A stretch of 64,000 bases of DNA, from assembly GCA_001790515.1 (NCBI GenBank), contig MGCS01000002.1:199243-263242 (forward strand), written 5' to 3'. The stretch is from Candidatus Saccharibacteria bacterium RIFCSPHIGHO2_12_FULL_44_22. GTDB lineage: Bacteria > Patescibacteriota > Saccharimonadia > Saccharimonadales > Saccharimonadaceae. Shown piece by piece: positions 1,686-26,007 of the stretch (within the stretch, counting starts at the first letter, position 1; each line of letters begins with the position of its first letter). The notes beneath the pieces are model-generated. The model made no database searches and was not told where the DNA came from. It saw only the letters and a program-made list of their open reading frames with translations. Position numbers and translations under genes: made by a program.

Positions 1686-3752
1686 ATGCTAAATGCCCGG
1701 CCATCATATCTGGTCCGATTAGTCCGCTCAATGAGTAAAAAGGTGGGTGTTTTTGCTATTGTTGCGCTACTTTCCATATCGGCAAGTGCTGTTGGACCCC
1801 TTAACGCGACCGTAAACGCACAGCCAACGCTAGGCGGAACATCTGGACTATCGTCGGGCTATGGATCAACATCATCAACTTGCGCAATAGAGACCGTTGG
1901 CTGGGTAATATGTCCGATCATGCGGTCTATTGCACTCCTGGCCGATTACGGCTTTGCATTTATTAATCAGAATTTCTTACGCGTTGAATACGATTTGACC
2001 GGTGGAGATAGCGGTGTCTATAAAGCATGGCAAATGATGCTGACACTCGCAAATATCATATTTGTTATCGCGTTTCTGTGGGTTATCTATACACAGATCA
2101 GCGGCCGTAATTCTGGCGGCTACAGCATCAAGCGGATGTTACCGAGGCTGATCATCGGCGCAATCCTGGTGAATTTATCGTATTCGGTATGTGTCCTTGC
2201 TATCGACGCCTCTAATATCGGTGGCGACGCTATTCTGCAGCTAATGACGGGTGTCAGCGGGTCGATTGGCGATGCCGCAATGACATTGACTAGTGCAGAA
2301 AATGGATTCAGCGATAGCAGGCTAACAGATATCACTACCGCTGTCTTGTCCAAATTTGGAACAGTCTGGATACTCCTTGCGCCCGTCGCTGCTGTAACAG
2401 TATCGATCGCAGTGGTGTGCGCGGCAGGACTGGTACTGCTGATCATGCGTAAGGTAGTTATTTCAATGTTCATTTTGATATCGCCACTAATCTTTGTTGC
2501 ATACCTCTTGCCAAACCTTGAACGAATATTTCAACAATGGGGAAGGCTGTTTTTTCAACTACTACTCATTTATCCGGTTATCGCATTCCTACTGGGTACT
2601 GGGCAGGTAATTAGCGCGACGATAGTCAATGTTGGATCTGGAGGTGCCGACGCTAACTACTCAGTCAAGGACGACAGCTATAATGGGCGCAATGGCGGAT
2701 CGGGTAGTATTACAACCGACCTGGCAGCATCTGGTGCTGCAGTTCTTCCACTTATCGGCGTGTGGTTCATTCTAAAGAACGTGTCGTCAGCCGTCAGTAC
2801 TGCCGGTAGCAAGTTTGCTGCCAACGTCAACAAACGTGGATCGAAGTCACAAGATGAAAAGATGAAAGCAAAATTAGCCAACAGAGAAAGCCAAGGTTCA
2901 AAGGCAGGCGCAGCTGCCGGATTGCCTTCATTTGATCGTCGCCCGGCGTTCAGTCGACTGTCACGGCGCCGTAAAGCTACAAAAGCAGGAAGTGCGCTAC
3001 CAACGGGCGGCGCAGCAGGTAGAGCAGGTGCAAGTGGATCTGGATTAGGCGGCGGACTTCCGGGTGGCGCAAGCACAGACCCAGAATCTGCGTTGAACAA
3101 TTCACTTGCGCAAAATCCAGCATTAGCACAATTTGGTGCTGATCAGTCTGGACAGCCTACCGTAGGCGATGTCGCTGGTGAAGCCGCCAAGAAACTTGAG
3201 CAAACGGCCGTTGCAAAAGATGAAAATGGCAATGGTATCGATATCAATGTCGCAGCAACTGCAACTGACGATAAAAAAGATAAAGGCAAGACAGCTAAAG
3301 ACATCTTTAATAATCTTAATAAGACGCGACCAATGTCCAAGGATCAACAACGAAGCCAGGGTGGTGGACAAGGTGGTGGATCTGGGCAGTCTGGACCAAG
3401 CGCACCAAGTACTCCTGGCCCAGTCACCAATGCACCGATCGCCGCAGCATCGATGGGCGGATCTCAACAAAATAGCGGCGGCGGTTCAGCTCCGCAGATT
3501 ATTGCAGTTCCAGTCCAAGTAGACGCTGCTAGCTTCTTGAATAAAGAACCCCGCGGCGCATCAATGGGCGGCATGGTTCAGCCACCAACAAGCGGTATCG
3601 AAAACAAAGCGAAAGCTCGTGCTCAAAAATATATATTTGACTCTGCGACAGAAGTAAAACAAGCAGAAGAACGCTTGGACATCCTGAATAATCGCGACAC
3701 TAAAAGCGACGAACCGCCGACAACAACGCCGGAGCAAAAAGGTGACAAATAA
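1686..3752 (+). CDS. VirB6/TrbL-like polytopic T4SS membrane protein (copy 1)
   Basis: The 688-residue protein has an N-terminal signal-like segment (about 17-40), an exported Cys pair (C66 and C76), then a run of membrane helices to about residue 370 including the shared motif KRMLPRLII. A long Gly/Ser/Gln-rich, apparently cytoplasmic tail of roughly 300 residues follows. VirB6/TrbL proteins form the inner-membrane channel platform of T4SS; assignment is by topology and by clear similarity to the gene at 10319-12637 (same Cys spacing, same KRMLPRLII). The start at 1686 fits the predicted transcription start; an alternative ATG at 1731 (MSKK) would give a more standard signal peptide. Its stop overlaps the next start by one base (TAATG). 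Confidence 0.65.
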   Translation: MLNARPSYLVRLVRSMSKKVGVFAIVALLSISASAVGPLNATVNAQPTLGGTSGLSSGYGSTSSTCAIETVGWVICPIMRSIALLADYGFAFINQNFLRVEYDLTGGDSGVYKAWQMMLTLANIIFVIAFLWVIYTQISGRNSGGYSIKRMLPRLIIGAILVNLSYSVCVLAIDASNIGGDAILQLMTGVSGSIGDAAMTLTSAENGFSDSRLTDITTAVLSKFGTVWILLAPVAAVTVSIAVVCAAGLVLLIMRKVVISMFILISPLIFVAYLLPNLERIFQQWGRLFFQLLLIYPVIAFLLGTGQVISATIVNVGSGGADANYSVKDDSYNGRNGGSGSITTDLAASGAAVLPLIGVWFILKNVSSAVSTAGSKFAANVNKRGSKSQDEKMKAKLANRESQGSKAGAAAGLPSFDRRPAFSRLSRRRKATKAGSALPTGGAAGRAGASGSGLGGGLPGGASTDPESALNNSLAQNPALAQFGADQSGQPTVGDVAGEAAKKLEQTAVAKDENGNGIDINVAATATDDKKDKGKTAKDIFNNLNKTRPMSKDQQRSQGGGQGGGSGQSGPSAPSTPGPVTNAPIAAASMGGSQQNSGGGSAPQIIAVPVQVDAASFLNKEPRGASMGGMVQPPTSGIENKAKARAQKYIFDSATEVKQAEERLDILNNRDTKSDEPPTTTPEQKGDK

Positions 3753-6526
3753 TGGCTGGCGGAGATACACAACCAGAACAACATGACGCCGCAAACACAG
3801 ACTATGAACGCAAGTTCAACAAAACAGGCAAATCTCTTGAAGAATTAGAAAATGCGTCCGATGACGGCACCAGCAACAATGCAACCGTCAAAGAACGCGA
3901 GGCCGCTGCCGTTGTCTCAAAGGGTCAAGACACGAAAGAGGAAGTAACCGTACCACTAGGTAAACGACTTGCGCTGCAAATCCGCAACAAGTCAGCATTC
4001 ATGTTTGTGATCGGTATTATTATAATGGGCATCGGATACGCGTCTTTGTTTGCGCCGAATATTATCCTTGTGAACATAAAGGATCTATTCGTCAATGACC
4101 TAGCGGACGCCACGACAGCACTCAGTAAATACAGCATCAAGATGATTGACTACAAACTAGGCAAAAGCGACTGTAGCGACAAGGAAACGATTAAATGCAA
4201 ACTGACGACTATGAGTCGCGCGCAGGTGTTGGCATTCAAAAAATTCGGCTTTACCGTCAACGGTGAAAAGGTCGAAGAAGACAATCTTGACGACCGTGAT
4301 TTTGGTAACGACAAGCCAGAAAGTCGTTGGAAAGTGAGTTCAATTGAATTCCCTGACAATGTTGGCACTGCATCAAGCGGTGATCAGTTCAAAAAATTGG
4401 CTGATACGAACGACAAGATTCGCAACCTGACAAATGCCGTTTGGAATCCACGATCCAGTTTTTTTATGGATGCACGATTCCAGCAGCGATTAAAAACAGA
4501 GTTTGATCTTACAAAAAACGCAACGACATCCGGTACAACCTACAAAGAAGTCAACGAATCATTTGATGCATCGATGCAAGGAAGTAGCGAGAAGGTCAAC
4601 GAGGCAGGGCAGGGTGCATATAGTTTAAAAACCCTTACAGAAAATGACTCCAAAGATGCACTTAATAAAACATCTCAAGAAATAGCAAAGCAAGTTAATT
4701 CATACACACAAGGCCAGTGCGCAATGTGGACACAGCAAAAAGTTGTCTACAATGCCGTCCAGGAAGCAAAAACAGTTACGGTTGCGCGATTTGCGATGCA
4801 GTATTTGATTGCGGCAGATCAAATAAAAGCTGGCGGATCATCAGAGATAACAACCAACACACTTGCCAGCAAAGTCGCCTGGAGCCCAGACGGAGGCTAT
4901 AACGGATCAAACGCTACCGACGCATCAATGTATCGACATATTGTTCTCCGCGAAGGAGTCACTGCGTCAGGAACTGGACAAAAATATTATGCATGGGCGT
5001 TTGATACTCCCGGAGTTCTCCTCCCGGCTACCGTGCAGCTACTTACTACTTCGACAGCCACAAAAGGCATTACTGGCGCACCAGGTGGACTAGGTGCACC
5101 GCCAACAGACATCGCATCCGATTCGCGCGAGTATTGCTTGAGCGGTCAGACGAACGCAAACAGGTCAGCCATGAAACCAAGTAACTGTCCAGCGCTCACA
5201 TTTGCAGGGGCTCCTGGACCAACTGTGGGTGCAGTTGGTGGAATTGCTATATTGTCAGACAGAATCTGCCCACCGCCACCAAAAGGTCAGTATCTAATGA
5301 CACCGACCGCCCTGATGACCGTTCAGGTAACGATGCCCTATATATCTGGCGTCCTCAATGGGCTTATGAGCGGACTCGCCGATAGGCTCGCAAAAGACTT
5401 TACCTATGATACGAAGGGTGAGGCAGCCAGTGATGCGATTTTTGCAGGAACCGGTATTATTTTGGGCGATATGGCGATGTCGCGCGGAATGCGACCAGCG
5501 GACAAATCATCATTAACTACATATTTAGCACAAGAAACAACGTCAGACAAAGAGGCAGAGCTTGTGGATCGCTACGCCGCAAAACAGAATCAGTTTGATA
5601 TATATAACGAATTTTCATTCGCCGGGTCGCTCGCTCGATCGCTAGGGGCAACCTCAGCTTCGTCGTCGACAACGCCAATCCTTGCGTCGCTGGCAAACGT
5701 GATGGGGCTTATTCCAACCTCTATCGGCAAACTCAGCACAAATGCCAACGCAATCTATAATTTACAGCCGGACAAATTCGAACCATCACGACTAACGTGT
5801 TCTGACTCTGAATATCTAGAGATAGGCATCGAAGCCGACATGGGCTGTAACATCCGCTACAGTATGAGCAAAGAAGAAATGGACGCTGACGTAGACGATG
5901 TATTGGCCTACATGACAGAAAAGCATCCAGAGGAAACAGATAAAAATATTCAGGAACTTCAACAGCGCCAACAACAAACAGACGGCGAAGGAACGAACGG
6001 ACGCTTTGCAGACAAGGCGATGGTTAGTCGTATGCTCAGCGAAGCGCAAAAGGCTAACGGCGAACCGTTTATCGACAAAAAAACAGGCAAAGCTATCGAA
6101 AACAGTGAATACGACAAATACCTTCGCTACTGCGTTAACCGTGAAGATCCATGGGGGCGAACGGGGCTCGATGTCCGATCAAAAGAACTTGATGATGATG
6201 AAAAAGAAAAACGACGCTTGTCAAAAAGCCCCGACGGCGTACAGATAGGTACCGAAGGTCAGGGAAGTGAGTACGAACGAGTGCAAACAGATATGTATAT
6301 GGCCGTCACAGAAGGTGCGTCAGGAGATCAAGACTGGTACACCGGAAAGAAATGTCTTGAAGACAGTGAGATGCTGACGAATTTTCGTGCATACACGATG
6401 GCATGTTCAGTTGACGGATCGTTTGCGGGCACTATAGATTGTACCCAAAAAGACTACGCAAACTACTGGTCGTATGTTGATGACTTTTATACCAGTAACG
6501 ACATTCACTTCTTATCCTGGCACTAG
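3752..6526 (+). CDS. Large membrane scaffold protein, paralogue 1 (no hydrolase domain)
   Basis: This 924-residue protein has an acidic cytoplasmic N-terminus (1-80), a membrane helix (about 81-105), then a large probably extracytoplasmic region with further hydrophobic stretches in the middle. It is clearly related to the proteins at 16543-19839 and 22987-26007. Shared signatures include a GTGIILGDMA-like segment, FSFAGSLARS (about 620-632), a Cys-containing DSEYLEIG region, YCVNREDPWG (about 792) and DWYTGKKCL (about 860). Unlike the other two it ends shortly after this motif and carries no peptidoglycan hydrolase. I do not recognise a named family. One-base coupling to the VirB6-like gene suggests it is a structural T4SS partner. 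Confidence 0.6.
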   Translation: MAGGDTQPEQHDAANTDYERKFNKTGKSLEELENASDDGTSNNATVKEREAAAVVSKGQDTKEEVTVPLGKRLALQIRNKSAFMFVIGIIIMGIGYASLFAPNIILVNIKDLFVNDLADATTALSKYSIKMIDYKLGKSDCSDKETIKCKLTTMSRAQVLAFKKFGFTVNGEKVEEDNLDDRDFGNDKPESRWKVSSIEFPDNVGTASSGDQFKKLADTNDKIRNLTNAVWNPRSSFFMDARFQQRLKTEFDLTKNATTSGTTYKEVNESFDASMQGSSEKVNEAGQGAYSLKTLTENDSKDALNKTSQEIAKQVNSYTQGQCAMWTQQKVVYNAVQEAKTVTVARFAMQYLIAADQIKAGGSSEITTNTLASKVAWSPDGGYNGSNATDASMYRHIVLREGVTASGTGQKYYAWAFDTPGVLLPATVQLLTTSTATKGITGAPGGLGAPPTDIASDSREYCLSGQTNANRSAMKPSNCPALTFAGAPGPTVGAVGGIAILSDRICPPPPKGQYLMTPTALMTVQVTMPYISGVLNGLMSGLADRLAKDFTYDTKGEAASDAIFAGTGIILGDMAMSRGMRPADKSSLTTYLAQETTSDKEAELVDRYAAKQNQFDIYNEFSFAGSLARSLGATSASSSTTPILASLANVMGLIPTSIGKLSTNANAIYNLQPDKFEPSRLTCSDSEYLEIGIEADMGCNIRYSMSKEEMDADVDDVLAYMTEKHPEETDKNIQELQQRQQQTDGEGTNGRFADKAMVSRMLSEAQKANGEPFIDKKTGKAIENSEYDKYLRYCVNREDPWGRTGLDVRSKELDDDEKEKRRLSKSPDGVQIGTEGQGSEYERVQTDMYMAVTEGASGDQDWYTGKKCLEDSEMLTNFRAYTMACSVDGSFAGTIDCTQKDYANYWSYVDDFYTSNDIHFLSWH

Positions 6527-6537
6527 TGTTGATTAAT

Positions 6538-6576: not shown

Positions 6577-6594
6577 GCAAAGAAGTATTTATGA

Positions 6595-7233: not shown

Positions 7234-7259
7234 ATCAGGTTAATTCCTTGTTTCTTACG

Positions 7260-7282: not shown

Positions 7283-7323
7283 CCACAAGCGGTATACCAG
7301 GTGAACAGTATAATGTAATGTGC

Positions 7324-7352
7324 TTGTCCTTATTTTCTATCTGCGGTATTCT
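7324..7352 (+). promoter_or_regulatory. Promoter of the secreted hydrolase gene, near-leaderless
   Basis: TTGTCC (7324-7329), 17-base spacer, TATTCT (7347-7352). The predicted transcription start is about 3 bases before the ATG at 7362, which lacks a Shine-Dalgarno sequence. Confidence 0.5.
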
Positions 7353-7361
7353 ATACATATT

Positions 7362-10318: not shown

Positions 10319-12637
10319 ATGGGCGGAATACAAAAATTAAATAAAACCAGAACCTTCTCAGTGATCATTGGGGGGGTTCTTTTGTTTGCATTCTTGGGCA
10401 TTTTTACACCCACTGATATTGCGAAGGCCGTTGGAAATTGTCCGGGTAGCCAAGTCCAGGGCAATGCAACTAACGGCAAAGACACTACAAAATGTTACAA
10501 CGTTACGCAAAATAGAAGTGGTAACAATGTGTACGTTGCAACAGGTGATACGCCCGCCGGTCAGACCCCATCAACACCGAATAGTCCAGCGACGCCATCA
10601 AGCCCACCTGCGCAAAATCCCGTCGATACAACTGCAGACCCCACAGATGGCACAACATGCGCAGTAGAAAAAATCGGCTGGATACTTTGTCCAGTCATAG
10701 AAACGGCGGCAACTATCGCAGATAAGACTTTTAGTCTCCTTGCAAATAACTTTTTACAGGTAGACCCTAGACTGTTGGCAGACCAGGGTGCAAAGCCAGC
10801 ATGGGAGCAAGCTCGAAACCTAGCAAACATCATGTTTGTTGTCGCATTTTTGGCTATCATCTATTCGCAAATTACAGGATCAGGACTTAACAACTACGGC
10901 ATTAAGCGCATGTTGCCACGACTAATAATTGCAGCCATTGCCGTTAACGCATCCTATTATATCTGTCAGATCATGGTAGATTTATCTAATATCATGGGGT
11001 TTGCAATAAAAGCAGGCCTGACAGGAATTGCCAATGATATCGGTCCATCCATTCTAAGCGGATCTGCACAGGGTCTAAATACAGAAACTAGTGGTGGCGT
11101 ACTGGCCTACATTGCAATCGCCGCCCTGGCGCTGGCTGGATTTATATGGCTGATATTGGGTCCATTGGCATTAATAATCACAACAGTTGTCGTCACAGCA
11201 GCGACAATAATTGCGATTTTATTACTACGAAAAGCCATTCTAATCCTATTGGTCGTTATCTCGCCAATTGCATTTGTACTGTATCTATTGCCGAATACAG
11301 AGAAGTTATTCGATAAATGGCTAAAGATGTTTTGGGGACTATTAATGGTATTCCCTGTTGTAGCGCTGCTGTTTGGAAGTGGGCAACTAGCGAGTACTAT
11401 CATATTAATGGCCGGTTCAGCACCCGAACAATACACAGAAACGACCGAAGAGTGTGTCGAGAGGAAAGAACAAGAAGCCGCCGGTTTAACGCAAGCAAAG
11501 AAAGATGAGAACGCTGTAAATGACGGGTTTACTTTGCCTTGCGAAAAAGGCTTCACTGTTACATCAGTTGATAGTCCCGAGACCGCACAGTCTGGTATGA
11601 TGTTAGGTCTTGTTGCCACGGGAATCGCCGTTGCGCCACTATTGGCGGTGTGGGCAGTACTTAAAGGTGCGCTTTCTGCTGCTGGTGCTATTGGTGGGCG
11701 AATTGCCGCGGGAGTACAGAAGGGTACTGGCGGTGCGGGAAGCCTTGGGAACAAAGCATACGAGAAATCAGCATTCGGAAGAGGCCAAGCTATCCGTAAA
11801 GCAGCAAAAGAGAACTATAAGAACCGTAAGTTCGGTGAAAACTTAGCGGATATTGACCAAAGCGATAGTAGATTTAAGAAAATGCGAAAGAGATACACGA
11901 GAGCCGCGGCAGGTGGAATACCAGGTGTACTCAATAATACAGGTGCAGGTGGCGGTGGTGCAGAAGCGCAAGCATCAGCGCTTCGTCGATCAGCAATGTC
12001 GCAGAATATGAAAGCGGAACAGGAAGACATCAGTGGAGCACAGGCTGAGCTGCAGTATTCAACACGCGGTGATATGGGTCAAATTGCCAACAAACTTGCA
12101 GAGGCAATTCGAGATGGGAACGAAATCCAGGCAAAGGCAGCAGAGAATATGCTTATGGGAATGGGCGGTGGCGGCATTGACAAATTTGCAAGCGCTATTA
12201 TAGAAGCCGAGAGACAAACTCAGACTGCAAACTCATCTCACGTATTAACTGAGCTCAAACAGCATACTGGTCAACATCATGGCGGCATCAAAGAGAAGTC
12301 TGGAGATCTTAATGGATGGATGTCAGAGAAATACAGTACATCTGACACAGGGCAAATATCGGGTGGAGGCTTGCAGAGTTTCTCTAGAAGTCCTAATGCA
12401 TTTAGCGGGCTTTCAGATGACCAAATTGCAACGCAGTCTCATGCATCACTCCATGCCGCATTTGCCAGTGATGCACTAAACCATAGTGATGCCACTAGAA
12501 TCTTAGAGTCTACTTCGGCAGCTAAACTCGGTGGTGCACAGCGACAGATGCTTACGGAATTAGCTACAAACCGTGGTCCAAATGCAGCGAGCACTATCGC
12601 TCCGCGCCACGCACCGACAGACACTACGCGAGTCTAG
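10319..12637 (+). CDS. VirB6/TrbL-like polytopic T4SS membrane protein (copy 2)
   Basis: The 772-residue paralogue of the protein at 1686-3752 has the same plan: N-terminal signal-like helix (about 13-30), Thr/Pro-rich linker, a Cys pair (C114 and C124) with the same 10-residue spacing, KRMLPRLII, several membrane helices to about residue 460, then a long Gly/Ala/Gln-rich cytoplasmic tail. An extra Cys-containing, charged loop (TEECVERKEQ) sits between two late helices. VirB6/TrbL proteins organise the inner-membrane channel of T4SS. It precedes prgI, the TraC-like gene and virB4, the expected company for this family. Having two diverged copies suggests two machines or a hetero-oligomeric platform. 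Confidence 0.7.
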   Translation: MGGIQKLNKTRTFSVIIGGVLLFAFLGIFTPTDIAKAVGNCPGSQVQGNATNGKDTTKCYNVTQNRSGNNVYVATGDTPAGQTPSTPNSPATPSSPPAQNPVDTTADPTDGTTCAVEKIGWILCPVIETAATIADKTFSLLANNFLQVDPRLLADQGAKPAWEQARNLANIMFVVAFLAIIYSQITGSGLNNYGIKRMLPRLIIAAIAVNASYYICQIMVDLSNIMGFAIKAGLTGIANDIGPSILSGSAQGLNTETSGGVLAYIAIAALALAGFIWLILGPLALIITTVVVTAATIIAILLLRKAILILLVVISPIAFVLYLLPNTEKLFDKWLKMFWGLLMVFPVVALLFGSGQLASTIILMAGSAPEQYTETTEECVERKEQEAAGLTQAKKDENAVNDGFTLPCEKGFTVTSVDSPETAQSGMMLGLVATGIAVAPLLAVWAVLKGALSAAGAIGGRIAAGVQKGTGGAGSLGNKAYEKSAFGRGQAIRKAAKENYKNRKFGENLADIDQSDSRFKKMRKRYTRAAAGGIPGVLNNTGAGGGGAEAQASALRRSAMSQNMKAEQEDISGAQAELQYSTRGDMGQIANKLAEAIRDGNEIQAKAAENMLMGMGGGGIDKFASAIIEAERQTQTANSSHVLTELKQHTGQHHGGIKEKSGDLNGWMSEKYSTSDTGQISGGGLQSFSRSPNAFSGLSDDQIATQSHASLHAAFASDALNHSDATRILESTSAAKLGGAQRQMLTELATNRGPNAASTIAPRHAPTDTTRV

Positions 12638-12680: not shown

Positions 12681-13727
12681 ATGGCGGTTTATAAAGTACC
12701 ACAAGACGTCGAGGCGGATGACAAATTAATTGGTCCGTTTAGCTTTCGGCAGTTCATTTATCTGATTGTCGTTGCTATATCTATGGCAGGAGCATGGGGT
12801 CTGTATCAGGTATTTATACCACTGGTTATCGTACCAATCCCGATCATGCTGTTTTTTGCTGCATTAGCGCTACCGCTACGTAAAGACCAACCGATGGAAA
12901 CGTATCTGTCCGCCGTTGTGTCGTTTTACTTTTTGAAATCACGCAAACGTATGTGGCAACCGGATGGTATTGATTCGTTCGTCACCATTATCCCGCCAAA
13001 AGATTCAGAAAAGATCCTGACGAAACAATTCGGCGAAGACGAAGCAACTCGTCGCCTGGGCTATTTGGCAGACCTTGTCGACAGTCACGGCTGGTCCGTG
13101 CGTGGACAAGGCGTACCCACACCAGACACGTCGATCAACACCGATTTGTACTACGAATCACAGGCGACTGGCGACATGATGGATACAAACAACGCAGCTT
13201 CGCAGCGGCTAACCCAAGGACTACAACAATCATCAACTACGGCTCATCAAAACGCCGTAGCACAAATGCAGCAATCGGCCGTAACCGATGACACGTCTAT
13301 GACCACAGTCGCACAGTCAAATCCACTACTCGCAGGTCAGCCGCCAATTAATCCCGCAGCCGATCAATACGATCCTGCGACGCCGTTTAATCCAATGGCA
13401 CACCAGCAACCAGCGCAGATTAAACCAACTACCCAAAGCTATTTGGGGCGCGAACAGCTAGATGCAATCGCATATGCATCTGCACTCGCAGAAGAAGCAT
13501 CAGATGACCGTGCAGCGGGCATACCGCGCAATAATACGACGAAAAGCACTAGCGTAACACCTACGTCCGATGGTACAATAGAACGTGCTAAGAAAAGGGC
13601 GGAAGAACTGGCAAAACGCGACGATCTAAAGGTGTCGACGTTAGCCGAAGAGGCAAATCGCCTCGCTAAAAAAGACCTTGACCAGGGGATGGTCGAAGGC
13701 GACGAAGTAACAATTTCTTTACGGTAA
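12681..13727 (+). CDS. PrgI/VirB3-like T4SS membrane protein with long C-terminal tail
   Basis: Residues 1-115 match the PrgI family: VPQDVEADDKLIGPFSFRQF, two closely spaced helices (about 25-42 and 44-65), then a PLRKDQPME/FLKSRKRMW segment. PrgI is the VirB3 counterpart in Gram-positive-type conjugation systems and is normally little more than 100 residues. Here about 230 extra residues follow, first Gln/Pro/Asn-rich (about 170-260), then a charged helical end rich in Ala/Glu/Lys. The tail may contact VirB4 or the TraC-like protein encoded next; that is inference. The gene sits 43 bases after the VirB6-like gene and 33 bases before the next. Confidence 0.8.
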   Translation: MAVYKVPQDVEADDKLIGPFSFRQFIYLIVVAISMAGAWGLYQVFIPLVIVPIPIMLFFAALALPLRKDQPMETYLSAVVSFYFLKSRKRMWQPDGIDSFVTIIPPKDSEKILTKQFGEDEATRRLGYLADLVDSHGWSVRGQGVPTPDTSINTDLYYESQATGDMMDTNNAASQRLTQGLQQSSTTAHQNAVAQMQQSAVTDDTSMTTVAQSNPLLAGQPPINPAADQYDPATPFNPMAHQQPAQIKPTTQSYLGREQLDAIAYASALAEEASDDRAAGIPRNNTTKSTSVTPTSDGTIERAKKRAEELAKRDDLKVSTLAEEANRLAKKDLDQGMVEGDEVTISLR

Positions 13728-13760
13728 CGACGACAGTAAGAGGGAGTGGAGACAAACACA

Positions 13761-16542: not shown

Positions 16543-19500
16543 ATGTCCGGTACTGATTTATTAGAACGCGAGCAGCAAGCTGGTAATGAGGCCGACAATC
16601 TAAATCCTGGCGACAGAGCATATCACAATCAAGTCGATGGAAGTCACGAGGCTATTGAGGGTCACGACCGAGATGGCGATGGCTTTGATGACATAGTAAA
16701 TCACCTTGATTTTGGACATCGAGGCTCTACTCATGTCGATTCACACGGAGATACCGTTCAAAACAATCCCAATAGCAACCCCGACCCAAACGAAAATATA
16801 GCAAGTACCCGCGACAAAGAAAATAATCCCGCAGAAGCAGGCTGGAATACCACGGTCGGCAAAGAATCTACCGATGGCAGCCCTGCAAAAGGCCTAGGCT
16901 CGATGCAAATCAACGTCAAAGGCAAAAAAGGCCCGACCGGGTCAGTTGTCGGGATGTTGCTTGGTGGTGGCGCGGTTGTGACGGTTACACTATCCCCGGG
17001 AATGCTACTAGTCCAAATGAAAGAAGTTTTTCATAACGACCAAGCATCAGCAACTCGTACTAGCCTGTTGATGACCAGAGCAATGTTGGCCGTTGCATTC
17101 AAGGCAAACCATATTAATGATCCTTGCAACGGTAAGTCAAAAATTAGCTGCCAACTAGGAAGTGCGTCAAAATCACTTATCCAAAAGTACAAAGAAGCAG
17201 GGTTCAAAGTCGACGCAGTCGAAGTCGACGCTGACGGCAAGGAGACTGGCAAAAACGCAACTGACATGGATCCTGCTGATCCTGCTACGGATCAAAATCG
17301 ATACAAGGTAAATACCCTGGAGTTTCCGGATGGGCATGTGTCATCTGATGGTGCCGACTTTAGTAGGTATACAGATTCCAATCCATCCGCTAGACGTGTC
17401 GCCGTAAATGCCGACAACGGTAGATCGGGGAACTATTTAACACAACAATTCAGAAGCACTCTTGTTGAGCGTCTAAAGATTGCAAGCGGCAAGCAAGCAA
17501 CAAACTATACAGAAGGTGAGACAGACGAAGCTAAGGCAGAGCGTGCGCGTCAGTTTAACGCCACAACTGGCGGAAGCAGCGAGGCCGATGCCGAGGCAAA
17601 TGCACGGCGGGTATCTGATGAAGTTCGAAGCGAAACAGAAGAGCGAGCAAATAGAGGGGGAGCTGCCGCCAAAGTAGGCGGCGTCACTTCGTTTATACAA
17701 ACGGTCTGCGCTGGATACAAAGGCACAACGATTGGCCTGGCTGCCGTTAAATCAAAACATATGCTGCGCTTAGCTAATTTCGCTATGGAGTTCTTGAAAG
17801 TTGCCGATATGATAAAAGCGGGTGTAGCGACCGCTACGGCAGTAAGCTATTTATCGGATAGATTGACATACGTTGAACGAAACGAATACCTTGAAAACGG
17901 AGAGAAGAATCCGAAATATAATCTCAGTGCAACAGATTCTCAAGGCTATAGGATTGCGGCACACGGTGACATGACAGGATTAGCTTTATTCGCTGAAAAA
18001 TACGTCCTGGGATATGACGGAGAGGGTGGCTTGAGTCTTTCAACAAAAGCCTTATTAGGTGCTACCGCTGCTACTACTGCACTCGAGGCTGCGACCGGCG
18101 TCTTTGTTAACGCCGTCACCCCGGGACCTGGCATCGATGGTAAAGATGCATTAAAAAATGTATGTCGTACAGCGGGCAGTCTAGCAGCTATAGCAGCACA
18201 ATGTACATTACTCGCTACTCAATCATTGGCTGCAATAGGTACGACAGGACCCTTCGGTGCCGCAACAACTGTAATAGGCCTCAAGATGTGCCAGTGTGCT
18301 GTTATGAGTAATCAGGTTATTGATACTATTCTACAGAGCGCGGCAGGAGTACCTACATGTGAAGATATACAGGGTCTAATCGGCCTGCTAAAGAAGGGGC
18401 TTATTGCCGCGACCGCGGGAGCTGTAGCTGCTGCTGCCGAAAGCGTTATTCGTAACTGGAATATAGGGTCAGACACAAAAGGAGTAGATGCGGGGAATGC
18501 CATCGCCGCGGGTGCGGGAATAATATTAACTTCAGCTGCAACATCCTACGCGTTAAAACCGACCACGAAATCAAACTACAAATCCTATATAACCTACACT
18601 GATCCATACGTAGAAAAAATAGCCGAGCTAGACAAAGAAGACGCGAAATCAACACCTTTTGATACATCAAATAAATATAGCTTCGTAAGCTCGTTAATTA
18701 GATCAGTGAAGATTGAGGATACATCTAGCAGTACAGCGTTTGGTGGAGTGTTTAATTTGTTAAATGTCGTACCAACGGCGTTATCCACACAAGCAAACGC
18801 TCTTTATACCAACCCAGTTCAAGAACAAGAGCAGCGATATGACTGCAATACCGAAGATAAAATCAAAGACGAAGGATTAGACTATCTAGGAGTCGATGGC
18901 GACAAGTTCTGTACAATACTACCAGATACGCCGCAAAAAGAACTGAAAGGTATTTCCACTCAAGAAAAAGAAGTAAAAAGCACTTATTTTCAGGATACTC
19001 GACAATGGATGGAAGATGAACAAAATAAAAGCGAAGATGACGGCGGAACGGCAGATGACGGCGATGGCTGCGAAAAAGGGTGCGATGGAGAACCGTCTAT
19101 AGATGGTGATGGTAAGCCAAATCCAGATAGTCAGTATCAAAAATGGATCACGTATTGCAGCGAGAAGCGAGAAGATCCATGGGGATTCTCTTCGCATCCG
19201 TTCGAAGAAGGAAGTGATCGTGATCAAGACTGGTTTACCGGCAAACAATGTCTAAAAGAGAGTGACATGTTGGTCAATTTTAGGACATGGCACAAAATAT
19301 GTGCGGAAATTGCAAAAGGCAAAGGCACGCTGAATTGCTGGGATAGCGCAGAAGCAGCAGCTGTACCATCCAGTACCTGTGCTGGTGGTGGCCCCACGGC
19401 AATTTATACTTGCGCACTGAAGTACGACAACTATCAGTACAAATGGGGCGGTGGACATGGTGATGTTCCCGATGCAAAAAAATGGATCGACGAATTCAAT

Positions 19501-19839
19501 GCAGGGAAAGTTCCTGAATGGGAGTCGATCTTGGACTGCTCGGGCATAGTACGCATGGCGTACGTTGAAGCTATGGGGGTCGAGGATCAGGCATATGTAG
19601 CCGAACCAGAATACGAAACAAGTAAACATTGGCAAAAAATATCGCTCGAAGAGGCCACTCAAGGTGATATCGTTACATCGTCTGGTCATGTCGCGATCGT
19701 TCAATCAAACGATCCCGCAGCAAAGACATTCAAAATTTTCCATTCATCAACTCCAGGTAGCCCTAAAGAAGACAACATACTTCACGGTACCCAAAGTTAT
19801 GGTTCGACAGTTTCAGCATTTAGGGCGACGAAGGGGTAA
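16543..19839 (+). CDS. Large membrane scaffold, paralogue 2, with C-terminal NlpC/P60 peptidase
   Basis: The 1098-residue protein has an acidic N-terminal region (1-130), a membrane helix (about 136-157), a scaffold region homologous to those at 3752 and 22987 (KYSFVSSLIRS about 710, REDPWGF about 872, DWFTGKQCL about 895), and then a NlpC/P60-type cysteine peptidase domain (about 950-1098). Catalytic residues are visible: Cys999 in LDCSGIV and His1049 in SGHVAIVQ. NlpC/P60 enzymes cut peptide stems of peptidoglycan. In Gram-positive-type T4SS such enzymes open the wall for the channel. It follows virB4 by 9 bases and heads a cassette repeated at 22987-28516. No Shine-Dalgarno is evident, so translation may be coupled to virB4. 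Confidence 0.75.
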   Translation: MSGTDLLEREQQAGNEADNLNPGDRAYHNQVDGSHEAIEGHDRDGDGFDDIVNHLDFGHRGSTHVDSHGDTVQNNPNSNPDPNENIASTRDKENNPAEAGWNTTVGKESTDGSPAKGLGSMQINVKGKKGPTGSVVGMLLGGGAVVTVTLSPGMLLVQMKEVFHNDQASATRTSLLMTRAMLAVAFKANHINDPCNGKSKISCQLGSASKSLIQKYKEAGFKVDAVEVDADGKETGKNATDMDPADPATDQNRYKVNTLEFPDGHVSSDGADFSRYTDSNPSARRVAVNADNGRSGNYLTQQFRSTLVERLKIASGKQATNYTEGETDEAKAERARQFNATTGGSSEADAEANARRVSDEVRSETEERANRGGAAAKVGGVTSFIQTVCAGYKGTTIGLAAVKSKHMLRLANFAMEFLKVADMIKAGVATATAVSYLSDRLTYVERNEYLENGEKNPKYNLSATDSQGYRIAAHGDMTGLALFAEKYVLGYDGEGGLSLSTKALLGATAATTALEAATGVFVNAVTPGPGIDGKDALKNVCRTAGSLAAIAAQCTLLATQSLAAIGTTGPFGAATTVIGLKMCQCAVMSNQVIDTILQSAAGVPTCEDIQGLIGLLKKGLIAATAGAVAAAAESVIRNWNIGSDTKGVDAGNAIAAGAGIILTSAATSYALKPTTKSNYKSYITYTDPYVEKIAELDKEDAKSTPFDTSNKYSFVSSLIRSVKIEDTSSSTAFGGVFNLLNVVPTALSTQANALYTNPVQEQEQRYDCNTEDKIKDEGLDYLGVDGDKFCTILPDTPQKELKGISTQEKEVKSTYFQDTRQWMEDEQNKSEDDGGTADDGDGCEKGCDGEPSIDGDGKPNPDSQYQKWITYCSEKREDPWGFSSHPFEEGSDRDQDWFTGKQCLKESDMLVNFRTWHKICAEIAKGKGTLNCWDSAEAAAVPSSTCAGGGPTAIYTCALKYDNYQYKWGGGHGDVPDAKKWIDEFNAGKVPEWESILDCSGIVRMAYVEAMGVEDQAYVAEPEYETSKHWQKISLEEATQGDIVTSSGHVAIVQSNDPAAKTFKIFHSSTPGSPKEDNILHGTQSYGSTVSAFRATKG

Positions 19840-19841
19840 TC

Positions 19842-20333
19842 ATGCAGACAAAGAAAAAGATCATCACTATAGTCAGCATCCTTTTTGTCGTTTCATTGAT
19901 CGGCGTTGGCATCTGGATAGTGCTAAGCGTAGTAAAAGAACAACCTCAGCCAAACGATGGAATAACCGAACCCGGTAGTTCATCTGATAACTCGCAAGAT
20001 ACGCCGACCAATAATGATGGTGCGGCAAACCAGGGAAGTGAGCCTTATGTTGCTCAAAGAACCCAAGAGGATTTGAATACATTTGTTTTAGAAAATAACC
20101 CTGGTTTGGTAGATAGTACGACAAATTTACCTATTTATACGATTGTACGCAAGCAAAATCCGCTAGAGAACTGGTATATTCTAAGAATCCGCAATAGCCA
20201 GCAAGATACAAGCGACGCTGACGTCATAATACAAGATATAAATGGCACATTAACGATCGTGGCTGGTCCAGGAACGGGATTATTTTTAAATAAAAATCTG
20301 CCAGAAGCCGTTAAAAAGGCACTGTCGGAGTGA
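19842..20333 (+). CDS. Small single-pass membrane protein
   Basis: The 163-residue protein has one N-terminal helix (about 7-29), a Pro/Asn/Gly-rich linker (about 35-68) and a compact extracytoplasmic domain. The domain contains WYILRIRN, then DINGTLTIV and a short helix at the end. That pattern (Trp-Tyr strand, INGxLT strand, hydrophobic strand, terminal helix) resembles the small proteins at 22241-22915 and 28016-28516, so the three may share a fold. Its ATG lies 2 bases after the scaffold stop and its stop precedes the M23/lysozyme start by 2 bases. Function is unknown; it is absent from the second cassette. Confidence 0.5.
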   Translation: MQTKKKIITIVSILFVVSLIGVGIWIVLSVVKEQPQPNDGITEPGSSSDNSQDTPTNNDGAANQGSEPYVAQRTQEDLNTFVLENNPGLVDSTTNLPIYTIVRKQNPLENWYILRIRNSQQDTSDADVIIQDINGTLTIVAGPGTGLFLNKNLPEAVKKALSE

Positions 20334-20335
20334 TT

Positions 20336-21604
20336 ATGGAATTCACAAAGCGTACAACACCCCTAAGCATCACATACTTCATTGCGGCTATTGTGTTTAC
20401 TCTTACTTTTTTTACAAGTACAGCCCTCGCCATTACTGAAGCGAATCCAAGCGAAAAAGAAAAGGGTAGTTTTGATATTTTGTATTGGGAGAAGTGTGGC
20501 GTGACTGGATCTAGCGGCACAGGTACTCCATCAACCACAGAAGAACCAACAAGCACTGGTGCGGTAGATGAGAGTGGCTGGGCGTTCCCTACTGTTGCCG
20601 GCACACCGATATCGAGTGACTATCGTGCTCCTAATCGACCCGGACACCAGGGTGTCGATTTAGCGGGTCCTGGGATATTGGGGCAGCCGATCTACGCATC
20701 TCGCGACGGTACAGTGACTCACTCCGGAACGGCATCTGGATTTGGTTATTGGATTGTCATCGAACATGATGTTGACGGGCAAATAATTAGCAGCGTTTAT
20801 GGACATATGTCGGGTGATGATCTTATGGTGCCTGTTGGAGCTAAAGTAAAAACTGGTCAGCAAATATCCAGAGTTGGCAATCAAGGACAAAGCACTGGCC
20901 CACATCTTCACTACGAGGAGCGTGTCGGTGGTGTAAACGGAGGAGATCGAAAACCCGTTGCAGTATATGGTCAGACAGGCAACACAACACCCGCTGACCC
21001 TGCCGATCCCGCGGATCAGCAGGCATCTACACAGCCCGCAGATACGAGCGCAGCCGATCAGACCAGCTCTTGTAAAGGTGAAAGTGGCAGCAAAACTCCA
21101 GTAACGCCTGTAAATTGTGCCGAAGCGAACAAATCAGAAGATAAGTCCAAGTTCGTGTGGGACTATTTGCGCGGGCAAGGTCTATCCGAAGAGCAGACGG
21201 CTGGAGTAATGGGAAACCTAGCACATGAATCTGGCGATCCTACATTCAAAAAATCGACGGATGTATACGAAGTAGGTGGCGCAAATGCAGGATACGGTCT
21301 AGCACAGTGGTCGTTTGGTCGACAAACTAGTTTACGTGACGCCGCAGCAAAAGATCCGCGAGGTCTGACTGACCTGTGCTTTCAGCTTGACTATCTTGTC
21401 GAAGAAAGTAAGGCACGCGAACGAAGAGATGGTGGTGGAAATGAGTGGGATGGCATCAAAGAACAAAAAACGATTGAAGATGCAACGTATTACTTTGAGT
21501 ATAACTACGAACGACCACAACCTGGCAGTACTGGTGCTCGTGTAAAATATGCGAACGAATATATGAATAAATATGGATCAGGTGGAGGAAATCGCAATGT
21601 ATAA
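20336..21604 (+). CDS. Secreted bifunctional peptidoglycan hydrolase: M23 endopeptidase plus phage-type lysozyme
   Basis: The 422-residue protein has a signal peptide (about 1-31) and an M23/LytM zinc endopeptidase domain (about 80-215) with H104, D108 and H190/H192 (GPHLH). A Pro/Asp/Thr-rich linker leads to a phage-tail-lysozyme-like domain (about 280-422) whose probable catalytic Glu298 is in GNLAHESG. One arm would cut peptide bridges, the other the glycan chain. The ATG at 20336 follows GGAG at 5 bases; an upstream GTG at 20330 is rejected. The M23 domain is closely related to that at the end of the scaffold protein at 22987-26007. Its stop overlaps the PEGA gene start by 8 bases. Confidence 0.8.
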   Translation: MEFTKRTTPLSITYFIAAIVFTLTFFTSTALAITEANPSEKEKGSFDILYWEKCGVTGSSGTGTPSTTEEPTSTGAVDESGWAFPTVAGTPISSDYRAPNRPGHQGVDLAGPGILGQPIYASRDGTVTHSGTASGFGYWIVIEHDVDGQIISSVYGHMSGDDLMVPVGAKVKTGQQISRVGNQGQSTGPHLHYEERVGGVNGGDRKPVAVYGQTGNTTPADPADPADQQASTQPADTSAADQTSSCKGESGSKTPVTPVNCAEANKSEDKSKFVWDYLRGQGLSEEQTAGVMGNLAHESGDPTFKKSTDVYEVGGANAGYGLAQWSFGRQTSLRDAAAKDPRGLTDLCFQLDYLVEESKARERRDGGGNEWDGIKEQKTIEDATYYFEYNYERPQPGSTGARVKYANEYMNKYGSGGGNRNV

Positions 21605-22244
21605 TACAGCTATAGACATACTCAAGCAATATCGAGGTGTATTATTTTTTATTCTTTTTGCTGTAATCTTCGTCTTTTCGATTGTTACCGGTTTTACTCT
21701 ATATCAACGATCAGGGAAGTTACCATACAACCTGGCTGTAGCACCAAAAGACAGTATTGTACGGCTAAATAATGTGGAGGTTAAACCTGGGACACAATAT
21801 CTACAACCCGGAGTATATAAAATCTCAGTAACACGCGAAGGGTATACAAACTACACCAAAACAGTCACGCTAGACGAGAAATCAAACGAAACTGGTCTTG
21901 CGGTTCCATTAGTCCCTGTGTCGGACGAAGCTATCAAATGGGTACAAGACCATAAAAAAGAATATGAAGCCGTGCTTTCAGCGGCAAAGTCAGAAGAAGA
22001 CAGGCAATTAGCGCTACTAAAAGCCGCCAACCCAATAACAGAGAATATGCCATTCAAAAACCTGCTATATGGGATCAATTACCGCGCCGAGCCTAAAGAT
22101 ACAACCGGAACAAGAATACAAATTGAAATAACTTCGACAGAGAGCTATCGAGCTGCTGCGTTGTACCAACTGCGTAAATGGGGTTATGATCCGACAGATT
22201 ACAGAATCACATTTACTAACTATACGAGTCCGTTTTCATCATGA
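21597..22244 (+). CDS. Membrane-anchored PEGA-domain protein (cassette A)
   Basis: The 215-residue protein has one membrane helix (about 15-37) followed by a PEGA-like beta domain (about 45-100) with the typical order: an N-terminal strand, LNNVEVKPGTQ, then LQPGVYKISVTREGYT. A helical, charged region and a second small alpha/beta domain end the protein. PEGA domains are common in bacterial surface proteins and are thought to mediate envelope interactions. The ATG at 21597 overlaps the previous gene, and ATGA overlap joins it to the next gene. It is paralogous to 27385-28023 at the matching place in the second cassette. Confidence 0.7.
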   Translation: MYNTAIDILKQYRGVLFFILFAVIFVFSIVTGFTLYQRSGKLPYNLAVAPKDSIVRLNNVEVKPGTQYLQPGVYKISVTREGYTNYTKTVTLDEKSNETGLAVPLVPVSDEAIKWVQDHKKEYEAVLSAAKSEEDRQLALLKAANPITENMPFKNLLYGINYRAEPKDTTGTRIQIEITSTESYRAAALYQLRKWGYDPTDYRITFTNYTSPFSS

Positions 22245-22915
22245 AAAAAATAATCATCATATCAGCCGCTATCTTGTCTATCATTATTATTGGAATAGCT
22301 ATTACAATCCGCGTCATCACACCCGAGCAAAACCCGACTTCAAATGTCACATTCAGATTCAGTCAAAGCGACATATCAGTCAAACTTTTCAAGAACCTCC
22401 CCGATAATCAGTCATCAGAGATAACAACAATGGAAGAAACGACAACCTTAGTACTTGATAATGGATCTTATTACTACATTCCATCCGGAATTAAACTTGC
22501 CGGTGGCGCTGTAAACTTTGACATTACAAATGATACTCAATTCGTCGTCGATCCAACATACAGTCGAGAAGTATTAAACACTGAATTAAATCTCCAACAA
22601 ACTGCAATTCACAACACTATCAAACAAACGTATTCATTAATCGATCAGAACTATACTATTCAACAAGGGAAGCTGTACAACCACGGTCAATGGTACATAA
22701 CAACTTTGACCGACAAACGAGCAACGAACAGAAATCCTTTTGACACCTACAGAATTGTCGCATTGAACGAGAATGGTGTATGGCAGACTGTCACAAAACC
22801 AGAGCTTGTCTTATCTGCGATTGACTACCCGGGAATCCCTAAAAATATTTTAACCGCCATAAATGCAGCAACTACTGATACTATGACTAATACAACCTTT
22901 ATCGACTACGAGTAA
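22241..22915 (+). CDS. Small membrane-anchored protein (cassette A)
   Basis: The 224-residue protein has an N-terminal helix (about 4-25) and an extracytoplasmic domain. The C-terminal 95 residues contain QQGKLYNHGQWYITTL followed by a strand ending NGVWQTVT, then PELVLS and a terminal helix. The same pattern appears in 28016-28516 (DQGRLYKQGQWYGTTL), so these are paralogues at the ends of the two cassettes. Translation is coupled to the PEGA gene by an ATGA overlap. No named family is recognised; it may be a periplasmic or wall-zone partner of the PEGA and hydrolase proteins. Confidence 0.55.
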   Translation: MKKIIIISAAILSIIIIGIAITIRVITPEQNPTSNVTFRFSQSDISVKLFKNLPDNQSSEITTMEETTTLVLDNGSYYYIPSGIKLAGGAVNFDITNDTQFVVDPTYSREVLNTELNLQQTAIHNTIKQTYSLIDQNYTIQQGKLYNHGQWYITTLTDKRATNRNPFDTYRIVALNENGVWQTVTKPELVLSAIDYPGIPKNILTAINAATTDTMTNTTFIDYE

Positions 22916-22930
22916 GTCTATCTAATACCC

Positions 22931-22959: not shown

Positions 22960-22986
22960 ATGTAACGATAGAAGTGATCCGGGAAG

Positions 22987-25900
22987 ATGAGTAAATTAGA
23001 CACACGAAAACCGTCATCTGACACTGATGGCCAGCGCTATAACGCCGGTCAGAATTCGTATAACCCTTCGCAAACGGATTACGAGAACAGATTTGACAAG
23101 ATAAAAGCAGCCGAAGAAGAACTAGGCAGCCTCGATAACAGCTGGAATGCTGAATATCAGGGTAAAAACGGCTCGAATATAACCCTTCAGGGCGACAATG
23201 TAAAAAGTAATTACAACGCCGACGATCCAAACGCAAACATAGATAAAATCAAAGAAAAAGAGCAGACCGACCTTGCGCCAAGAATTGGTCGCACTGCGCC
23301 AGCCAATAGCAAACCAAAGAAACGCTGGCAGCTATTTACCAGCAAAAAACTACGAGGTAAATCGTCGCTTATTACGGTCACGCTGGTATTGTTTGGTGGT
23401 GGTGGCATTATGACACTGGTTTCGTCACCCACACTCGTTATTGCGCAGTTAAAAGAAGTGTTGACACAAGATTTGAATGATCAAGTGAAGGCACTCGATA
23501 CACGGTCGTCGATGATGATCCGAGCCAAGTTAAAAACCGCCACTAGTGGATCATGCGGGGTCGTAAAGGTTGCCTGTAAATGGAGCCATATGACCATCGA
23601 GCAAGCAAATTCACTTCGTGCTGCTGGCGCTCAAATTGATCTTGATACGACTGACAGTCCTGAGGGTCGAGGGAAACCGAAAAAAATAACCTTCTACGAT
23701 GAGAGTACAAAACAAACCATCAACATTACATCAGCAGAAGATTTTGCAAAACATTCTGCAAACAATCCTTCATTTCGTAAGATTATGATCAAAGCCTATA
23801 ACCCAGCGTATGTCGGCACCAGTGATCGTATCGCATTGGGCGTATATAGGCTGTATAAAATCGCAAAAAATACTGGTATCAAAGGCGATACTGATGAAGA
23901 ACGGCGTAAATCTCTGAACGAATCTATCAAAAACGGGTCTGATGAGGTAACGACAAATCGACTCCGTCCAGAAACCGATTCAGAGGGTAGGCCAACGGGT
24001 GATTATTTGGACGAGAACGACCAAAAAGTGACCGCAGCGGAACGCGCAGTTATCGAAGATACCGCTCGTGTCGGTCAAGAAGCGTCCAGGCTTGGCACTG
24101 CCAATATAGCAACAACTGTTGGGAATGGATTGAAGATAACAGCAACCGCAGAGAATGCCTGTACGGCTTGGATTGCAATGCGTGCTGTCCAAGGTGCAGC
24201 AAAGACAAAAATGCTGTATGATGCTGGGCGCGCAGCACAATTAGGACTACTGGGACCGGCCGATAAATCAAAGGCTGGCGATGCCGACGAAGGAGAGATG
24301 ACAACAGTCGGTGATATGATCACCAAAACGGACGCCCGAAAAGAAGTAGCCGACGAGTCTAAATTAGAACAGACGAGCGCGTCTACATCACCACCAATGG
24401 TCGCCAATCCCGACTACGGCAAAGATGCGACCGATGCGCCAGGACCAAGCGTCGCCATGCACGGCGGCGCGCCAGAACTAGACATTCGTGCATCGCAGTT
24501 TATGTTGAGTGGCGGATTTGTCGGTACGATGTCTGCGATGACTCAGTTGATCGCCAAAGCAGTTCCGGGTGCGAACTCACCGCAAGACATTACTCGCGCC
24601 TGCAAAACACTCCGCAATCCTATTGTCCAAGCAGGGACATTAGCAGCTGGCGTCGCTGTTGGCGCAGGGTCGTTCGGGTTGTACACCGCAGCAGGTATTG
24701 GTGCCTCACTACTCATCAGCATGGCAACTCCGTATATGTTGTCGCGAACAGTCGACATAATGTCAGGCGATGTATTTCAAAATCTGTCAGGCCTTAATTA
24801 TGGCGACGCAATGTTTGTCGGTACTTCGGCACTGCTAGGCACAATGGCGATGAAACGCGGTATGAAGCCGCTTAGTTCGAAACAGGCGATTACCTACACC
24901 GATGCAACAAAACAGACAAACGATCAGTACGCAGCAACAGAGCGTGACATCGCAAAATCAACACCATTTGATGTAGCAAATCAGTATTCATTCCTTGGTT
25001 CATTGACACGGACGGTACTGCCGTATGCAAACCAATCAAAAAAGAGTATTGGCAGCGCTGCACTGAATCTTGCAAGCCTTGTGCCGGCAAGTCTTAGTTT
25101 TTCATCATCTACGACAAAAGCAGCTGCAACGACCGAACGATTCGAAAAATGCCCTGATAGCGAGTACCAACGATTAAATATCGGCGCTGATATATTTTGC
25201 AATGTCCGCTACGGGCTTGATGAAGAAGAGCTAGCAATTGACCCAATCGAAAACGCCAACTGGATGGCTAGTACTGGAAATATCGACACAGAAAGTGACG
25301 ACGGTGCATCAAAGGAAAACGGCCAAAAATGGAATCTGGCAAAATTTGAAAAAGAATGCGTTGAACGCGAAGACGGCTGGGGTGAAGATAGTGCCGATGA
25401 TGGTGTTGGTGATGGAACTGACTGTTTGAGCGCCGAGAACGAAGCAGTCAATAAACGGTTCCGCGTCTATAAATTTGATCAAACAGTCAGCGATTCGCTT
25501 GATAGCAAAAAAGTCGACACAACACCAGGCACGACCGGGTTTAGCACTGGCGAAAAAGGTCCAGTATCAAGCGACGGTTGGGCGTATCCGACAGTCGTGA
25601 ACACTACGACACTTACTCAAGGATGGAAATCGCCGACACACAAAGGTGTCGACATCGCTGGCCCACTAAACACCGCACTATTTGCTGCTCGTGACGGCAA
25701 AGTTATTCAGTCGGGTCCAGCATCTGGATTTGGTAACTGGATTATCATTCAGCACGATATCAATGGACAGCGGGTCGATACGGTTTATGGCCACATGTAC
25801 AACGACGGACTGCTGGTAAAGGTTGGCGATCAGGTTAAAGCCGGGCAACAGATAGGCAAGATGGGCAACAATGGCCAAAGTACAGGATCACACCTGCACT

Positions 25901-26007
25901 TTGAAATATGGAATGGTGGTCGTTTCGGTGGAAAAGATGTCGATCCGCAGCCTATCATCGAAAAAGCCAAAAATGCAACGCCGAGTGATGCGGCGAGGGA
26001 TGTGTAA
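22987..26007 (+). CDS. Large membrane scaffold, paralogue 3, with C-terminal M23 endopeptidase
   Basis: The 1006-residue protein has a charged cytoplasmic N-terminus (1-120), a membrane helix (about 126-150), the scaffold region shared with 3752 and 16543 (NQYSFLGSLTRT about 665, CPDSEYQRLNIGAD, VEREDGWGED about 792), and an M23/LytM zinc endopeptidase domain (about 855-990). Metal ligands are visible: H885, D889 and H969/H971 (GSHLH). M23 enzymes cut peptidoglycan cross-bridges. In contrast to paralogue 2 the final peptidase is M23 rather than NlpC/P60, and the M23 domain resembles that of the separate enzyme at 20336-21604. It heads the second cassette and overlaps the next gene by one base. 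Confidence 0.75.
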   Translation: MSKLDTRKPSSDTDGQRYNAGQNSYNPSQTDYENRFDKIKAAEEELGSLDNSWNAEYQGKNGSNITLQGDNVKSNYNADDPNANIDKIKEKEQTDLAPRIGRTAPANSKPKKRWQLFTSKKLRGKSSLITVTLVLFGGGGIMTLVSSPTLVIAQLKEVLTQDLNDQVKALDTRSSMMIRAKLKTATSGSCGVVKVACKWSHMTIEQANSLRAAGAQIDLDTTDSPEGRGKPKKITFYDESTKQTINITSAEDFAKHSANNPSFRKIMIKAYNPAYVGTSDRIALGVYRLYKIAKNTGIKGDTDEERRKSLNESIKNGSDEVTTNRLRPETDSEGRPTGDYLDENDQKVTAAERAVIEDTARVGQEASRLGTANIATTVGNGLKITATAENACTAWIAMRAVQGAAKTKMLYDAGRAAQLGLLGPADKSKAGDADEGEMTTVGDMITKTDARKEVADESKLEQTSASTSPPMVANPDYGKDATDAPGPSVAMHGGAPELDIRASQFMLSGGFVGTMSAMTQLIAKAVPGANSPQDITRACKTLRNPIVQAGTLAAGVAVGAGSFGLYTAAGIGASLLISMATPYMLSRTVDIMSGDVFQNLSGLNYGDAMFVGTSALLGTMAMKRGMKPLSSKQAITYTDATKQTNDQYAATERDIAKSTPFDVANQYSFLGSLTRTVLPYANQSKKSIGSAALNLASLVPASLSFSSSTTKAAATTERFEKCPDSEYQRLNIGADIFCNVRYGLDEEELAIDPIENANWMASTGNIDTESDDGASKENGQKWNLAKFEKECVEREDGWGEDSADDGVGDGTDCLSAENEAVNKRFRVYKFDQTVSDSLDSKKVDTTPGTTGFSTGEKGPVSSDGWAYPTVVNTTTLTQGWKSPTHKGVDIAGPLNTALFAARDGKVIQSGPASGFGNWIIIQHDINGQRVDTVYGHMYNDGLLVKVGDQVKAGQQIGKMGNNGQSTGSHLHFEIWNGGRFGGKDVDPQPIIEKAKNATPSDAARDV

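Follow-up and report, generated by a model that had tools for sequence, protein, structure and literature searches.

Three large proteins encoded in the window (the whole 64,000-nucleotide stretch of DNA analysed here) are best explained as paralogues of one Saccharimonadia-specific, T4SS-associated membrane anchor, a single family that unites genes annotated as unrelated 'M23 peptidase', 'NlpC/P60' and 'hypothetical protein'. The reading frames and coordinates of P0001, P0002 and P0003 (Table 1) are correct open frames when checked against the window. The proteins align with one another over nearly their full length outside the tails at ~25% pairwise identity (blastp; E = 2e-50 for P0001/P0002, 2e-36 for P0001/P0003 and 1e-33 for P0002/P0003), and this likeness is not due to chance given such E-values over nearly the full length, in agreement with the family of three described in an earlier note on this DNA. 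Two motifs listed in that note also occur in all three proteins: a GTGIIL-like segment (GTGIIL at aa 566 of P0001, GAGIIL at aa 657 of P0002 and GTSALL at aa 612 of P0003) and N-x-[YF]SF-x2-SL-x-R (starting at aa 619, 710 and 665, respectively). RED-x-WG (aa 797, 876 and 794) and DW[YF]TGKxCL, limited to P0001 (aa 861) and P0002 (aa 896), are present where described but do not hold as a family signature, this wording being local to a handful of closely related members (7/100 and 5/100); the family-wide features are instead a cysteine framework and a [YF]SF-x-G region. The C-termini differ as the note reported. P0001 stops ~55 aa past DWYTGKKCL, with neither NlpC/P60 nor M23 detected by Pfam, P0002 ends in an NlpC/P60-like region (20.9 bits, just below the Pfam cut-off of 23) that keeps the DCSG catalytic-cysteine motif, and P0003 ends in a Peptidase_M23 domain (7e-29) with HxxxD and HLH.

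Table 1. Features of the three core-family proteins and the surrounding T4SS locus (positions in the window; aa, residue numbers of the protein named).
Feature	Position	Strand	Basis or remark
Two T4SS pilin-like genes, divergent	153..1664	-	PF18895 7e-7; second weak, 0.096
VirB6/TrbL-like 'VirB6a', directly before P0001	1686..3752	+	TrbL E 0.009
P0001, core-family protein, 924 aa, no enzyme tail	3752..6526	+	After VirB6-like gene; blastp
P0001 TM1, aa 79-109	3986..4078	+	Hydropathy peak 2.26
P0001 REDPWG (aa 797) to DWYTGKKCL (aa 861)	6140..6358	+	Motif search
VirB6/TrbL-like 'VirB6b'	10319..12637	+	TrbL E 0.001
PrgI/VirB3-like	12681..13727	+	PF12666 2e-13
TrsD-like (VirB4 N-terminal-like) gene	13746..14636	+	Named by position and literature gene set (PMC12102498)
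VirB4 ATPase	14638..16533	+	TraG P-loop 5e-29
P0002, core-family protein, 1098 aa, NlpC/P60 tail	16543..19839	+	Next after virB4, gap 9 bp
P0002 TM1, aa 132-157	16936..17013	+	Hydropathy
P0002 REDPWG (aa 876) and DWFTGKQCL (aa 896)	19168..19254	+	Motif search
P0002 NlpC/P60-like tail, aa 965-1054, DCSG Cys 999	19435..19704	+	20.9 bits, cut-off 23
M23 + phage-tail-lysozyme protein, module copy 1	20330..21604	+	Pfam
PEGA protein + small TM protein, module copy 1	21573..22915	+	Homologous to copy 2
P0003, core-family protein, 1006 aa, M23 tail; heads second module copy	22987..26007	+	Blastp
P0003 TM1, aa 126-147	23362..23427	+	Hydropathy
P0003 second hydrophobic stretch, possible hairpin, aa 546-600	24622..24786	+	Between conserved Cys 539 and 722
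P0003 NQYSFLGSLTR motif, aa 665-675	24979..25011	+	Motif search
P0003 REDGWG, aa 794-799	25366..25383	+	Motif search
P0003 Peptidase_M23 domain, aa 884-984	25636..25938	+	Pfam E = 7.2e-29
Phage-tail-lysozyme protein, NlpC-like C-terminal motif, module copy 2	26007..27383	+	Resembles phi29 gp13, 2e-6
PEGA protein + small TM protein, module copy 2	27385..28516	+	Homologous to copy 1

The T4SS of the window lies beside recF-like-dnaN-dnaA and includes two VirB6-like proteins that are 36% identical (E 6e-69). Its TrsD-like gene had no Pfam match and falls between PrgI and VirB4 in all loci compared. A whole module of core protein, lysozyme, PEGA protein and small TM protein is duplicated in tandem (16543-22915 and 22987-28516), with detectable homology between the PEGA pair (6e-33), the small TM pair (2e-18) and the lysozymes (4e-7). 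These phage-tail lysozymes (PF18013) are secreted, and most genomes keep them downstream of the core gene. The third core copy, P0001, sits behind the first VirB6 gene near the divergent pilin pair, and its orthologues (L041, L042, L075 and L076) are behind VirB6a in 4/4 cases. A secreted, esterase-like BD-FAE/alpha-beta hydrolase (7320-8951; 4e-21) follows P0001, after a small gene on the opposite strand, and is kept in 5/5 P0001-type loci. Between the hydrolase and VirB6b genes, positions 9110-10270 encode a single-TM protein with a weak DUF3828 match (0.006); this is a possible candidate for VirB8, which other authors had failed to locate.

Among the genomes sampled, the core is confined to Saccharimonadia and is common there. 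An initial three-row profile with enzymes included (A1) gave many phylum-wide matches, all of them just the M23 domain, and was replaced by core-only profiles for family searches. Profile A6, a core-only profile built from 50 members, detected the core in 200/294 sampled Saccharimonadia genomes and 168/179 genomes of the window's own family; a core-only search of a phylum-wide sample of 193 genomes, covering other CPR classes, found it in no genome outside Saccharimonadia. The ~650-residue core had no Pfam match above noise among 50 members, no NCBIfam family match and no sequence relative in the PDB, bearing out the statement that no named family is recognizable, and these searches matched no known family of unrelated function. 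In Pfam, 50 cores matched no VirB8 (NTF2-like) or TrbI/VirB10 domain, and no such sequence match was found in the PDB. Weak matches to Isochorismatase, MurB_C and IPK were rejected as single-member noise. Scans of viral contigs matched M23 endolysins only, with none for the core alone, and PHROGs matched only the M23 domain, leaving the core without a phage counterpart.

This protein co-occurs and co-localises with VirB4 in Saccharimonadia, with exceptions in genus g2. VirB4 was detected in 277 of the same 294 genomes. Within the window's own family (n = 179), 164 genomes encode both proteins, 4 have the core without VirB4, 8 have VirB4 without the core and 3 have neither (Fisher p = 0.005), so the predicted co-occurrence is present, although the near-universal presence of VirB4 leaves the test modest and not very informative. 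Gene position is stronger evidence for the tie to the T4SS. Among loci fetched around core genes that also hold virB4, the window included, the core gene is the very next same-strand gene after virB4 in 33/33, with gaps of 3-369 bp (mostly <30 bp), and the order VirB6-PrgI-TrsD-VirB4-core-lysozyme-PEGA-small-(recF-like, dnaN, dnaA) is found across many genera. In profile-negative genomes, and likewise in other families and orders, the gene after virB4 nearly always codes for ~840-1480 aa on the same strand. Aligned by group and compared profile to profile, these post-virB4 proteins match the core in the f18 group (E 5e-22), in profile-negative members of the window's own family (1.5e-16) and in a group mostly of other class orders (6e-11), and six control profiles from this locus (VirB6, PrgI, TrsD, PEGA, small-TM and lysozyme proteins) each gave <2% probability against the core. 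A match of the lysozyme-set profile to the core (98.6%) was spurious: core-family genes had been sorted into that set through their M23 tail, and the value fell to 0.3% once these were removed. Position and profile-profile matches together suggest a family that probably extends across the whole class and evolves fast in sequence; the earlier note's 'lineage-specific T4SS component' thus stands as to lineage and to its link with T4SS genes by position and occurrence, but is class-wide rather than local.

The exceptions include g2, an oral-like genus in which virB4 often lacks a core gene next to it and core copies lie elsewhere; virB4 and core are separated in g2 loci L202-L205 and in L209. In two g2 loci (L098 and L112), the core gene lies beside pheS-pheT-ftsE-ftsX-EnvC-like-ctpA and its tail is non-enzymatic, ending ..DVRNR... 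In locus L208 (genome G415), which lies apart from virB4, one core gene directly follows another (749 and 1062 aa), and virB4 matches in G252, G316, G415 and other g2 genomes show in-frame stops (TGA/TAG/TAA) within the match or at its edge.

Across 99 family proteins, TM1 has a mean hydropathy of 2.1 and is preceded by 5.7 K+R in 20 residues versus 1.2 after it (97/99 proteins), a positive-inside pattern. Cysteines are all but missing ahead of TM1, with 7 in 10,875 aa, against ~7.3 per core after it, and the family-wide framework comprises eight conserved cysteines (190, 197, 392, 539, 722, 738, 791 and 813 in P0003 numbering), all predicted to lie outside. The single membrane helix described previously is clear as TM1 but is not the whole picture: core proteins hold 1-3 hydrophobic segments, and a second hydrophobic peak (≥1.6) is present in 84/99 members near P0003 546-600, for which the window copies are borderline (1.4-1.6). 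The sequences strongly support a short N-terminal head in the cytoplasm, a TM1 whose inner flank is positively charged and, often, a hydrophobic hairpin outside. The predicted topology that fits these patterns is N-in, C-out with disulphides outside, the extracytoplasmic part comprising ~600 residues in which four conserved cysteine pairs likely form disulphides. AlphaFold, run with five input sequences, gave low-confidence models of P0001 (pLDDT 33) and of its first outer domain (pLDDT 51), and Foldseek of this domain model gave no match with E <0.7. Homology of the core to VirB6 was rejected (hhalign against the local VirB6 family, 0.7% probability), and the TrbL profile had no match in 50 cores. 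Like VirB6/TrbL and extended VirB6, the family combines membrane insertion in a T4SS setting with a large, hydrophilic part outside the cytoplasm; unlike these, it is not polytopic, its 1-3 hydrophobic segments falling short of the five or more membrane helices of VirB6/TrbL, and VirB6 is encoded separately.

The last ~200 residues of family proteins form a separate module that some copies lack altogether. Whole-tail typing was contaminated by a shared linker, and final typing used domain-only seeds. Pfam domains in 95 tails were M23 (29), VanY (11), Exo_endo_phos (6), NlpC/P60 (3), CHAP (2) and one each of Amidase_2, M15_4 and BSP; most enzyme tails are therefore M23 or VanY, NlpC/P60 or CHAP tails account for 5/95, and many tails have no detected enzyme. 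Nuclease/phosphatase-like Exo_endo_phos tails, one or more per protein, occur in cores of 1220-1610 aa (L085, L083, L095, L100, L229 and L261) and are mostly followed by M23, which five of these tails carry. The tails are mostly wall-cutting, as the note proposed, chiefly hydrolases of peptidoglycan peptide or amide bonds, with the exception of the nuclease-like tails and the enzyme-free copies. No SLT or lysozyme domain was found in any core-family tail, the lysozyme being a neighbouring gene. One tail without a Pfam match (L251) appears double-psi-barrel-like by eye. On a FastTree core tree of divergent rows, with imperfect tail labels and a 'none' class that includes undetected types, tail types need 39 changes (minimum 10), and supported branches force at least 9 changes for M23 and at least 8 for VanY. 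For example, L077 (Amidase_2) groups with L248 and L250 (M23) of the same genus. Given the tree method and these labels, the sequences indicate that tail exchange is repeated.

That the core is a structural channel component, or places enzymes at the channel, is plausible. We favour, with somewhat better than even confidence, a T4SS-associated membrane anchor that presents wall-cutting enzymes, probably against the host wall. The core would be made with VirB4 and VirB6, assemble with VirB3, VirB4 and VirB6, and hold its enzyme outside the cell at the outer mouth of the T4SS; the separate lysozyme would cut glycan strands and the fused tail peptide bridges, together opening the wall for a channel or pilus where the T4SS meets it. 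Copies that lack an enzyme, P0001 among them, would have a structural role only, and Exo_endo_phos tails may serve the breakdown of host nucleic acid or lipid. The wall of the host actinobacterium would be a more likely target than that of the epibiont itself because tail type changes repeatedly between related species. The family offers a possible sequence marker of host range. Against a wall-opening anchor, virB4 of g2 often lacks a core gene behind it, some copies lie beside pheST-ftsEX, and Exo_endo_phos tails are not wall enzymes. A bolder form, which we regard as unlikely, makes the core a new T4SS subunit that replaces missing outer channel parts, braced by disulphides, with its hairpin inserted into the membrane of the host and its tip bearing an enzyme specific to that host; the T4SS would then be a penetration device and tail exchange would track host wall chemistry.

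The same enzymes could instead act at home, the core being a long anchored stalk of large VirB1/CwlT-like hydrolases that thin the cell's own peptidoglycan for T4SS assembly. Gram-positive VirB1-like proteins are wall hydrolases aiding channel assembly (PMC12102498), and M23, NlpC and lysozyme domains are all present here. Like VirB1-like/CwlT/TrsG hydrolases of Gram-positive conjugative T4SS, the core family is membrane-anchored and encoded in the T4SS operon, and some members have a C-terminal NlpC/P60 or CHAP-type peptidase; unlike them, it has no transglycosylase domain, the lysozyme is a separate gene, and a ~600-residue cysteine-rich core carries a tail drawn from one of at least six families, or no tail. 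We rate an own-wall role as possible but rather improbable: the core is kept without an enzyme in P0001-type and g2-type copies, repeated swaps are unexpected for enzymes aimed at the cell's own wall, which is fairly constant, and Exo_endo_phos tails fit poorly. These last tails, which could attack host nucleic acid or lipids, speak rather for polymorphic effectors, with the core as a delivery vehicle and the C-terminal enzymes as cargo that works on the host cell or inside it. The family has the defining feature of polymorphic toxins, an exchangeable C-terminal enzyme, here repeatedly exchanged, behind a conserved N-terminal part, and genes beside the T4SS of TM7x have been put forward as putative T4SS effectors (PMC10768705). 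Unlike such effectors, however, its members carry mostly wall hydrolases and include conserved enzyme-free copies, and the stable TM1 with its positive-inside signal argues for an anchored rather than a released protein; we consider this explanation doubtful. The genes downstream of the core, in the loci compared, encode lysozyme, PEGA and small TM proteins. Very improbable, in our judgement, is a peptidoglycan remodelling or division scaffold sitting by chance in an origin-proximal T4SS operon: g2 copies do have ftsE-ftsX, ctpA and a gene for an EnvC-like coiled-coil protein as neighbours, but nearly all other genomes have the gene between virB4 and the T4SS lysozyme/PEGA genes, and P0001 orthologues lie behind a second VirB6 with pilins.

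The favoured enzyme-presenting anchor bears on a system whose role in Saccharibacteria is, according to one paper (PMC11665869), completely unknown. S. epibionticum cannot do without its T4SS cluster, SEML1_0006-0019 (PMC10633639), and its genes essential for epibiotic growth include those for a peptidase and a lysozyme immediately after virB4 (PMC12102498). The 'peptidase' of strain ML1, known in the literature description by its enzyme domain only, occupies the same place behind virB4 as the core gene, with a lysozyme adjoining, a match by position, as for the TM7x genes. So far as tested, in a single species, the T4SS is essential for living on a host. The anchor family makes the job of this system testable, and a constant anchor with exchangeable enzymes yields a testable idea of that job, which would be the opening of the host wall. 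No description of a conserved core with tail exchange was found in the literature searched; overlap with the TM7x effector proposals (2020) is possible. A further parallel lies in the tail-tip wall-degrading enzyme of phage phi29, gp13 (morphogenesis protein 1), the closest solved relative of the lysozyme at 26007-27383, although the anchor core itself is without a phage counterpart. Phi29 gp13 pairs a lysozyme with M23, and the same pairing is found in the gene at 20330-21604.
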